A DNA stretch of 64,000 bases, from contig NZ_CP115160.1 of assembly GCF_027594545.1 (NCBI RefSeq), positions 4,088,501 to 4,152,500 of the forward strand, read 5' to 3'. Source of the DNA: Algoriphagus sp. TR-M9 (GTDB taxonomy: Bacteria > Bacteroidota > Bacteroidia > Cytophagales > Cyclobacteriaceae). Below the pieces are notes generated by a model. It ran no database searches, was not told where the DNA came from, and saw nothing but the letters and a program-made list of their open reading frames with translations. The position numbers were made by a program, and so were the translations under genes. Below, piece after piece: positions 45,109 through 48,685 of the stretch. Each line of letters starts with the position of its first letter. The first letter of the stretch is position 1.

Positions 45109-46215
45109 ACTAATTACCAACTCATAACTCACACTTCGTCCCCCACCTTGCGGCAAAAAGACGCCTAATTCCACCAAAGCCTGCAAATCCCGGGTAGCTG
45201 TCGCTTTCGAGGCTTTGGTGATCGCCATGTATTTCTTGGCAGTCATCCCTACTTCAAAACCAGCTGGACCTTCTGCTAGCATGCGATTGATAGCTTTCGA
45301 ATGTCGGTCATTGAGCATATCCTTGAAACGGTCAAAGAATTTGACTTTTTGAAGTGTAAAGTTGATCAATTGTTCTGCACTTAGCTGCGCATCGAAAACT
45401 GTGTCAGCAAAGTAATCCAACCAATCGGAGATTTCGTTTGCGCTTTGTCCGTTTTTCAAAGCACTGTAATACTCATTTTTCTTCGCCTCAATCGTGCTGG
45501 AAAGACTGATCAAGGTCGCATGTCCCAGGCCTTGATGAATCGCTTTTTCTGCCAAAGCCCGACCGATACGTCCATTTCCATCCTCAAATGGGTGAATCGA
45601 CTCAAAGTACAAATGCGTGATCGCAGACCGGATCAAAGGATTGTTTATCTCCTTGGTATTGCCCGGAGCAGTTTCGTTAAACCAAGAAATAAAAGCTGCC
45701 ATTTCTGAAGGAACCTGCGTAGAGGGTGGTGCTTCGAAATGCACGATTTCTTTCCCGATAGCTCCTGAAACCACCTGCATGGGAGCAGAATCTGCTCGCC
45801 ATTGACCAGCGCGCACATAGCGATTGCCTTCCATGAGCAGTTCATGCCAGTCAAAAAGCATTTCTTGAGTCAAGTCTTGGGCAAATTCGGATCGTACCTT
45901 GATCATCAGTTTAGCTATTCCTTTTGCCCGCTGATCTTTGACGAGTAAGGGTTGCTCCTCATGGATTCCCAGATTCTTTTTGATGGAAGACATCACATCG
46001 GGGCGACTGAGAAATTCACCTTCAATCTCGGAAGTTTTGATGGCCTCTACCACCATCATTTCCAGAAGCAGTTCAGTCTGATTTCCTTCAGACAAACCAA
46101 TGAGCACACCAGATAATTGCCCGGATTTCATAAGAAAATCAGGCAGTAGTTTTCCTGATTTACCTTCTTTGTAGGTAAATTTTGGCCAATCCGACTGTTC
46201 CCAATTATAACTCAT
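45103..46215 (-). CDS. Fic family protein with DUF4172 N-terminus and C-terminal winged HTH
   Basis: A 370-residue AMP-transferase-type protein. DUF4172-like opening (YNWEQSDWPKFTY); inhibitory-helix motif TSEIEG at residues 61-66 fits (S/T)xxxE(G/N) of class II Fic; catalytic HPFEDGNGRIGR at 208-219 with His, Asp, Asn and both Arg intact. Residues about 305-370 are a winged helix (MAITKASKATATRDLQALVELG, then wing GGGRSVSYEL). It should transfer AMP from ATP to a hydroxyl side chain or reverse this. The target is unknown. The promoter and ATG are covered by a palindrome, repeated once upstream, which suggests autoregulation. The stop lies within a degenerate repeat. Confidence 0.95.
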   Translation of the reverse strand: MSYNWEQSDWPKFTYKEGKSGKLLPDFLMKSGQLSGVLIGLSEGNQTELLLEMMVVEAIKTSEIEGEFLSRPDVMSSIKKNLGIHEEQPLLVKDQRAKGIAKLMIKVRSEFAQDLTQEMLFDWHELLMEGNRYVRAGQWRADSAPMQVVSGAIGKEIVHFEAPPSTQVPSEMAAFISWFNETAPGNTKEINNPLIRSAITHLYFESIHPFEDGNGRIGRALAEKAIHQGLGHATLISLSSTIEAKKNEYYSALKNGQSANEISDWLDYFADTVFDAQLSAEQLINFTLQKVKFFDRFKDMLNDRHSKAINRMLAEGPAGFEVGMTAKKYMAITKASKATATRDLQALVELGVFLPQGGGRSVSYELVISS

Positions 46216-46243
46216 GAGCCAAATATACTGCTTATTCGGCTCA
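46214..46243. promoter_or_regulatory. Fic operator palindrome 1, over the promoter and start codon
   Basis: Half-sites 46214-46226 (ATGAGCCAAATAT, 11/13 of consensus ATGAGCCGAATAA) and 46232-46243 (TTATTCGGCTCA, inverted) are 5 bp apart. The minus-strand -7 box TATATTTG (46220-46227) lies within it, and the fic ATG is at its edge, so a bound protein would block initiation. The transcript would start at or near the ATG. Confidence 0.7.
46220..46227 (-). promoter_or_regulatory. -7 box of the first fic gene
   Basis: TATATTTG, then GGCTC and ATG-edge: only four bases separate the box from the start codon, predicting a leaderless or nearly leaderless mRNA. The same TATATTTGGCT precedes the second fic gene. 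Confidence 0.55.
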
Positions 46244-46257
46244 AAAAATAAATAATT

Positions 46258-46288
46258 ATGAGCCGAATAATCGATTTATTCGGCTCAT
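46258..46288. promoter_or_regulatory. Fic operator palindrome 2 (perfect)
   Basis: ATGAGCCGAATAA (46258-46270), TCGAT, TTATTCGGCTCAT (46276-46288): perfect 13-bp arms. Its centre is 44 bp from that of palindrome 1, about four helical turns, so two dimers could bind on one face. It lies between the divergent fic and GH43 genes. Confidence 0.75.
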
Positions 46289-47481: not shown

Positions 47482-47519
47482 CTTTATTTTACCTTTATTT
47501 CTTAAAGTAAAATATAAAG
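47482..47519. promoter_or_regulatory. Imperfect inverted repeat upstream of the second fic gene
   Basis: CTTTATTTTAC (47482-47492) and GTAAAATATAAAG (47507-47519) are inverted with a 14-bp spacer (core TATTTTAC/GTAAAATA perfect). It ends 3 bp before the TATATTTG box of this gene. The area is A/T-rich, so chance is possible. Confidence 0.45.
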
Positions 47520-47522
47520 GAT

Positions 47523-47530
47523 TATATTTG
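47523..47530 (+). promoter_or_regulatory. -7 box of the second fic gene
   Basis: TATATTTG, then GCT and ATG at 47534: spacing of three bases implies a leaderless transcript and confirms the ATG over the TTG at 47528. Confidence 0.55.
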
Positions 47531-47533
47531 GCT

Positions 47534-48685
47534 ATGCCACGCATAGAAAAATTTGAATCCGGACATTTTGAAACTGCTTTCCAGTACAAATATTTTGTAC
47601 CGAACAAAGTAGATGTGGATTGGTTTTGGGATTCTCCTTTACTCAATAAGCTTCTGGAAAAAGCCGCAATAAAGCTGGGAGAACTGAATTCCTATGCACG
47701 CATGGTGCCGAATATTGATTTGTTTATTCAACTCCATGTGGCAAAGGAGGCTGTGGTTTCCAGCAAAATCGAGGGCACGCAAACACGGATAGAGGAAGCG
47801 TTATTGCCCATCGAAGACATACAGCCGGAGCGTAGAGATGATTGGCAGGAAGTGAATAATTACATCAATGCGCTCAATGCTGCCGTTTCCCAGCTGGAAC
47901 GCTTGCCTCTTTCGTCCAGATTACTTCGCAATACCCATGAGCTATTAATGCAAGGGGTGCGTGGGGAAAATAAACAGCCTGGGGAATTTCGCCAAAGCCA
48001 GAACTGGATCGGAGGAAGTTCCTTGGCAGATGCTGTATTTATCCCTCCACAGCATCTATTGATTCCTGAGCTCATGAGTGACCTCGAGCAATTTCTTCAC
48101 AACGAAGAAGTTTTCGTCCCAGATCTAATCAAGATCGCAATCGCGCATTATCAGTTCGAAACCATACATCCATTTTTGGATGGAAATGGGCGGGTAGGGA
48201 GATTATTGATTACCCTATTTCTGGTCAGCAAAGGCATTTTGGATAAGCCATTACTGTATTTATCCATGTTTTTTGAGAAAAACAGAAGTCTATACTACGA
48301 TAAACTTTCTGCTGTAAGAACAAAGAATGACCTTCTGAACTGGGTTAGCTTTTTTCTGATCGGAATCGAAGAGACGGCATCAAAAGCAGTAAGCACACTC
48401 TCTCATGTGCTGCTGCTGAAAGAGCAGAAAGAACAACTAATCGATACGGAATTCGGCCGTAGAAGTTCCAGCGCAAAGGTTTTGTTGCACGGGCTTTTCC
48501 ATGAACCGACCATTTCGGTTGAAAAAGCTGTTGCATTGACTGGATTAAGCTTCAAAGCAGCGAATGACTTGGTGCAATTGATGCGCGAAAAAGGAATTCT
48601 CACCGAGCAAACTGGCCAATCCAGAAATAGAATCTTCGTATTTGAAGAGTATTTGCAAGCCTTCGAATATGGTGAAGGAAAGTAA
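47534..48685 (+). CDS. Fic family protein with Fic_N and C-terminal winged HTH
   Basis: A 383-residue protein of the Fic_N/Fic/HTH type, different from the first one. SSKIEG at residues 76-81 is the class II inhibitory motif; catalytic HPFLDGNGRVGR at 212-223 is intact; residues about 305-370 form a winged helix (TISVEKAVALTGLSFKAANDLVQLMREKG, then wing QSRNRIFVF). It should be a self-inhibited AMP transferase; the target is unknown. An inverted repeat and a TATATTTG box precede it, and a 17/18 direct repeat of the upstream A-rich segment overlaps its stop codon. Codon usage looks like that of the neighbours. Confidence 0.95.
   Translation: MPRIEKFESGHFETAFQYKYFVPNKVDVDWFWDSPLLNKLLEKAAIKLGELNSYARMVPNIDLFIQLHVAKEAVVSSKIEGTQTRIEEALLPIEDIQPERRDDWQEVNNYINALNAAVSQLERLPLSSRLLRNTHELLMQGVRGENKQPGEFRQSQNWIGGSSLADAVFIPPQHLLIPELMSDLEQFLHNEEVFVPDLIKIAIAHYQFETIHPFLDGNGRVGRLLITLFLVSKGILDKPLLYLSMFFEKNRSLYYDKLSAVRTKNDLLNWVSFFLIGIEETASKAVSTLSHVLLLKEQKEQLIDTEFGRRSSSAKVLLHGLFHEPTISVEKAVALTGLSFKAANDLVQLMREKGILTEQTGQSRNRIFVFEEYLQAFEYGEGK

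Follow-up and report, generated by a model that had tools for sequence, protein, structure and literature searches.

Paired 29-bp dyads before a fic gene of Algoriphagus sp. TR-M9: a probable operator read by the Fic protein's own winged helix-turn-helix

The stretch of DNA analysed (the window; 64,000 bp of Algoriphagus sp. TR-M9, positions 4,088,501 to 4,152,500 of contig NZ_CP115160.1) carries on its minus strand a fic gene preceded by two inverted repeats, or dyads, which are the subject of this work (Table 1). Open reading frames (ORFs) were taken into account from a length of 80 aa upwards, a scope that also applies to any separate antitoxin gene beside fic. By sequence, the fic product is a class II Fic protein of the type DUF4172, Fic domain, winged helix-turn-helix (wHTH). 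DUF4172 occupies residues 3-84 (PF13776, 81.1 bits; curated cut-off 25) and the Fic domain residues 115-223 (PF02661, 63.1 bits; cut-off 24). The Fic motif HPFEDGNGRIGR at residue 208 fits HPFx(D/E)GNGRxxR, and the class II inhibitory motif TSEIEG (residues 61-66) fits the N-terminal pattern (S/T)xxxE(G/N); loose versions of these two patterns are matched by 229 and 230, respectively, of 233 family proteins. The C-terminal wHTH is predicted to comprise a helix (326-333), the recognition helix (337-349, with residue 337 as its first residue; pLDDT 90.3) and wing strands (353-356 and 363-366). In one comparison few rows span residues past 300, and absent HTH matches there carry no meaning.

Table 1 Features of the fic locus (positions in the window).
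Feature	Position	Strand	Remarks
fic gene, 370 aa	45103..46215	-	DUF4172, Fic domain, C-terminal winged HTH
Recognition-helix codons, residues 337-349	45169..45207	-	coordinates hand-derived from gene start; residues 337 and 341 covary with half-site bases
Fic start codon ATG	46213..46215	-	overlaps outer base of proximal dyad
Proximal dyad over promoter and start codon	46215..46243	-	minus strand TGAGCCGAATAA-GCAGT-ATATTTGGCTCA
TATATTTG box	46220..46227	-	4 nt before Fic ATG
Distal dyad	46259..46287	-	minus strand TGAGCCGAATAA-ATCGA-TTATTCGGCTCA

An earlier reading made from the letters alone (the sequence-only reading) had described four half-sites forming two palindromes, and direct reading confirmed this arrangement: both dyads are 29 bp long (TGAGCC-N17-GGCTCA) with 5-bp spacers, and their centres (46229 and 46273) are 44 bp apart. 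Both distal half-sites (46258-46270 and 46276-46288) match the consensus at 13/13 positions, and the distal dyad, if read as 46258-46288, is a perfect 13+13 palindrome. The proximal half-sites score 11/13 (46214-46226, ATGAGCCAAATAT on the plus strand) and 12/13 (46232-46244, reverse complement TTGAGCCGAATAA), as claimed, except that the second had been ended one base short, at 46243. The minus-strand TATATTTG box, which fits what we take to be the Bacteroidota -7 box (TAnnTTTG), lies inside the proximal dyad, and the Fic ATG falls on that dyad's outer edge, both as previously described. With this box so close to the ATG, the fic mRNA is likely leaderless.

A search of named genomes identified 79 loci, mostly from Bacteroidota genera by record title; other labels were metagenome-assembled genomes entered as Kiritimatiellales, Lentisphaerae, Chlorobiota, Pseudomonadota and Gammaproteobacteria, and two Pontiellaceae. 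With five further loci added and three left out (L083, L086 and L088, N-terminus unaligned), 81 loci, including the window gene, were scored for dyads at a threshold of at least 17/24 matches. At least two dyads were present in 73/81, one in seven and none at 29-bp geometry in one (L042), versus 0/80 control regions (best 16/24), a degree of conservation that rules out a chance origin. The presence of upstream dyads in orthologous fic genes had been set beforehand as a test on which the idea could fall, and the dyads proved to be kept. By complementarity alone, a 29-bp dyad (at least 10/12) was found in 76/79 upstream regions and 0/78 controls; even lengths gave results near background (3-8/79 versus 1-2/78 controls). 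For a family-wide count, 247 loci were collected (partial matches and one stop-bearing match left out), six were skipped (L086, L088, L113, L116, L118, L156) and removal of four duplicate upstream regions reduced the remaining 241 to 237. The consensus-free 29-bp dyad reached at least 10/12 in 166/237 of these versus 5/153 controls, and at least 9/12 in 214/237 versus 20/153. Six loci with odd-length translations (L045, L050, L081, L083, L087, L162) are in the dyad counts and outside the 231-row alignment.

Spacing is conserved as well. In subfamily A, which includes the window gene, the proximal dyad is centred at -14 from the ATG in 66/90 loci and the step between dyads is 44-45 bp in 79/85; of 86 loci outside this subfamily, the step is 33-34 bp in 44 and 52-55 bp in 37. 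These main values are about one helical turn apart, which suits dimers on one helix face, so the proposed placement of two dimers on one face is supported indirectly by steps of ~33, 44 and 53 bp. Counted by each locus's own half-site (210 loci), two dyads are present in 163, one in 43 and three in four. The third dyad lies another 44 bp upstream in L090 and L029, with spacing kept, and its step is 67 and 33 bp in L204 and L133, respectively. A third dyad is beyond the promoter on its upstream side, so contact among bound dimers would probably explain the spacing better than promoter geometry alone. TAnnTTTG was found in 69/90 subfamily A upstream regions versus 14/153 controls, at the upstream edge of the proximal dyad in 57/90 and in its right arm in 8/90, the window gene included. 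The position inside the proximal dyad given in the sequence-only reading thus holds for the window gene and a few relatives, and was rejected as a rule for the family; outside subfamily A the box is in the right arm in 24/120 loci. Within Algoriphagus (L010-L020) the -7 box has apparently shifted: it now sits in the right arm of the proximal dyad, beside the ATG, and no longer at that dyad's upstream edge. Some of these species have TATATTCG in place of the usual box.

Paralogues and remoter relatives retain the dyad geometry with other half-sites (TGAGGC, TGAGCT, TGCGGA, TGCGGT, TGCAAC). A paralogue in the same genome (L163, C1:2100132-2101214; 41% identical) shares the window gene's dyad positions, -14 and -58, but has half-site TGAGCTATAGAA (TGAGCT dyads) and P337 where the window protein has K337. 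Remoter members (30-38% identity) use TGCGGA, TGCGGT, TGCAAC and others, and here the consensus-free dyad test was weaker (14/23 versus 2/23 controls). Among same-genome pairs with both half-sites called, 15/17 differ in hexamer (14.2 expected from shuffling); insulation of paralogues from one another was accordingly rejected, with no sign of selection against sharing.

These differences track the predicted recognition helix. A half-site was called at 222 loci with an ungapped helix, of which 210 were used. Across 351 protein columns and 12 operator positions, residue 337 and base 6 were the top pair (1.05 bits; next column 0.66), and within the subset having C at base 3 (118 loci) the same pair gave 1.02 versus 0.63. 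The three best corrected pairs in that group were 337 with base 6, 341 with base 5 and 337 with base 5; residues 337 and 341 are one helix turn apart. In the 90 loci with A at base 3, wing residue 358 with base 9 leads by a narrow margin. On a tree of residues 1-290, from which the HTH is excluded, 16/33 base-6 changes fall on a branch that also carries one of 46 residue-337 changes (5.1 expected; reached in 0/2000 draws). No other column has so large an excess. Residue 341 shares 5/9 base-4 changes (0.9 expected). The residue-to-base pairings are regular: K337 in a helix of xTATR type is paired with TGAGCC in 79/80 loci, R337 in the same helix type with TGAGGC in 4/5 and TGAGGA in 1/5, and K/R337 plus I/V341 with TGC[A/G]AC in 14/15 (TGCCAC in the remaining one). 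At TGCGG sites T/S/N337 is followed by T/C in 32/34 and other residues by A in 56/62 (two G sites excluded). Half-site bases could also be predicted from the helix residues of relatives with <60% identity, correctly for base 5 in 182/189 cases and base 6 in 165/189, versus 138/189 and 116/189 from the nearest such relative; with relatives <45% identical, bases 5 and 6 were right in 75 and 69 of 80 versus 61 and 53. An anchor-free caller (162/231 loci, 127 in TG register) still placed 337 with base 6 at the top by corrected score. L158 and L173 have ALND for ALRD in the helix and TTCGG half-sites for TGCGG, perhaps a single event, which suggests that R342 reads the G of TG.

The computed dyads, their geometry and conservation, and the covariation of half-sites with residues 337 and 341 together point (probability roughly 0.86) to the dyads being the operator of fic and to the Fic protein reading them with its wHTH, most likely to repress its own gene and no other. 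That the wHTH is the reader is argued by residue 337 being the most informative on base 6, also on the HTH-free tree. Self-control by the Fic HTH, as put forward in the sequence-only reading, is upheld by dyads that follow fic across genera and by half-site bases that covary with the first residue of the recognition helix.

That the circuit would be dedicated follows from the rarity of the site. In the 4,816,080-base genome, TGAGCCRAWTN9AWTYGGCTCA with up to 3 mismatches matched the two fic sites perfectly and three more sites with 3 mismatches (reversed-pattern control, one match), with no further dyad site below 3 mismatches; the exact 13-mer occurs twice genome-wide, both times at the fic locus. 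A genome search for the palindromes had been suggested as a check, and within 2 mismatches it returned only the two fic sites. In 395 genomes of the class, up to one mismatch allowed, 21 exact dyads were found in 14 genomes (reversed control, one site), 17 of them adjoining a DUF4172 gene by coordinate comparison; one of the 17 (G563) is in a short open frame of 108 aa. Of five dyads with one mismatch, one (G748) is next to its fic gene and four are elsewhere. The exact pattern proved unsuitable as a family search, the own genome being its sole match in 395 phylum genomes; it is too strict, as judged by the gene-first search.

Several points weigh against a dedicated self-repressor, in the half-site data, the sign of control and a few stray operator copies. 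Only a single dyad was found at the 43 loci mentioned, and the anchor filter removed 12/222 called half-sites. After the top pair, the all-loci pairs mostly join base 3 to columns throughout the protein, which we attribute to the subfamily split and not to contacts. The loci are related and not independent, and the Fisher value for the code ignores the tree; in the tree test, the lead of residue 337 at base 5 is slim (excess 5.2, against 4.9 for both K307 and P89), and residue 341 does not reach significance there. Below 40% identity there are 13 cases only, with bases 5 and 6 right in 8 and 6 versus 7 and 5 from the nearest relative, and with the anchor-free caller the margin shrank and K327 with base 5 had the larger raw value.

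The sign of control we infer from the position of the dyads and by analogy with CccR, the Fic protein discussed below. The protein might instead bind its operator, as in the self-repressor reading, and activate or merely mark the promoter; the distal dyad does lie upstream of the core promoter. However, the proximal dyad overlaps the -7 box and start codon, and CccR, the sole measured case seen, is a repressor, so we consider activation or marking unlikely.

A second alternative is that the dyads serve a different regulator of the cell, with fic among the genes it controls. In its favour, four exact dyads, in three genomes, have no adjoining DUF4172 gene. Two of these form a pair 44 bp apart in G772. 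In G790 (L287, 2022-2050) a full dyad and then half of a second lie near a gene resembling one downstream of fic in L045, and this copy looks like an operator left behind after loss of fic. The G549 dyad follows an ORF that we take to be RadC-like, ~0.6 kb from a 466-aa ORF with a weak Fic-domain match (E 4e-9, 82 residues). The three copies other than that of L287 lie at L286 2044-2116 and L285 2003-2031. Against another regulator stand the scarcity of sites in the own genome, the 17/21 exact dyads beside DUF4172 genes and the tracking of half-site bases with the Fic recognition helix, which make it less probable still than activation.

That the dyads act as RNA hairpins (an attenuator, or translation control at the start codon) is suggested by their perfect inverted repeats and by the proximal dyad extending to the start codon. 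This reading was rejected as very improbable: the covariation is with protein residues, both dyads have one common half-site and, with the -7 box in the right arm of the dyad, as in this gene, the dyads would lie upstream of the expected transcript. In addition, of 131 dyads whose two arms both have A or T at base 9, 37 lack pairing at that position, which is not decisive alone. Control mainly of the divergent GH43 gene was rejected as equally remote, since, although the dyads lie between the two genes and GH43 adjoins fic in 9/79 loci (all Algoriphagus), no GH43 relative was found in the available flanking DNA of 70/79 and 59/67 scored GH43-less loci still have two dyads. The same counts go against the earlier suggestion that GH43 shares the control; flanking ORFs were viewed at 13 loci, and the 11 without GH43 have other neighbours.

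Beyond GH43 lies a second, SoFic-like Fic gene (47528-48685, plus strand; PADLOC SoFic 3.9e-116). The region before it (47482-47536) contains an AT-rich inverted repeat (47482-47519), TATATTTG at 47523-47530 and an ATG at 47534. Some relatives (L272-L274, L280) also have long upstream dyads, and self-operators may extend to SoFic-type genes.

Under the self-repressor reading, a symmetric Fic dimer would place one recognition helix in each arm of the 29-bp dyad, the outer half-sites being about two turns apart, and a second dimer would bind 44 bp farther upstream, facing nearly the same side of the helix, probably cooperatively. In the cell, bound dimers would mask the promoter (TATATTTG) together with the start codon and shut out RNA polymerase, and the Fic enzyme would thereby hold its own level low. 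Given that a class II Fic AMP-transferase may be toxic, limiting its own level alongside a built-in inhibitory helix may be the purpose, giving a one-gene module that would resemble a toxin with its own repressor. In type II toxin-antitoxin systems the product of a toxic-enzyme module binds palindromes at its own promoter; here, by contrast, enzyme, inhibitory helix and predicted DNA-binding domain are in one polypeptide.

The role of the C-terminal wHTH in Fic AMP-transferases is largely open, with one case of self-repression (CccR) and one of unsettled specificity (CbFic2). CccR of Yersinia pseudotuberculosis is reported to be, like the protein here, a class II Fic protein with a C-terminal HTH; it is a dimer and was shown to repress its own gene through a palindrome at its promoter (PMC9755527). 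An inverted repeat at the fic promoter matched to the protein's own HTH is found here also, computationally only. The published CccR operator is not matched in sequence or geometry by the Algoriphagus dyads: its footprint, AGATAATCAT-N26-ATGATAATCT, is one palindrome with a wide spacer (10 bp-N26-10 bp), whereas two in-phase dyads are present here. CccR is also a secreted effector.

The regulatory and toxic activities of CccR are reported as independent (PMC9755527), which argues against coupling of catalysis to DNA binding. CbFic2 of Coxiella burnetii (PDB 8CIL), a close relative, argues for it: as reported, this histone AMPylase/deAMPylase, tested with random DNA, dimerises on DNA, DNA binding alters its activity and a switch from AMPylation to deAMPylation is proposed, with sequence specificity left open by its authors (PMC10628234). 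Possibly, though we think it doubtful, the operator is part of a brake on the enzyme, the operator-bound dimer being the repressor and the AMP-removing or silent form and the free monomer the AMPylating form. Loss, titration or copying of the operator (e.g. on phage attack) would then free the enzyme, and the code at 337/341 would let members drift to different operators. SoFic, an anti-phage family, likewise combines Fic and a C-terminal domain and is reported as a dimer (PMC12249575). The PADLOC SoFic model fits the Fic protein far less well (1.6e-47) than the second Fic of the window, and the protein does not reach the NCBIfam SoFic cut-off (67.2 of 550 bits).

Among the matches listed in the open-access literature, CccR was the only Fic protein with its own HTH shown to be self-repressing, an absence that is weak evidence; the portion available of a 2026 review adds none, and that of PMC3667792 holds nothing on HTH. 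Of four motif strings, one or another is present in 68 papers, and the 15 matches listed look unrelated by title and start of abstract. Autorepression of a Fic protein by its own HTH is already known, with CccR as precedent; what appears new, again among the open-access matches listed, is an operator that is specific to its own protein and shared across a family, with a code linking residues to bases. Within the DUF4172 branch, for which the sample is mostly Bacteroidota, the HTH would be a sequence-specific reader of its own promoter, with a defined 29-bp dyad, spacing and predictable code. With short synthetic DNA, tests become possible of binding, of swaps in specificity and of how DNA occupancy is linked to AMP transfer, on which CccR and CbFic2 point in different directions.
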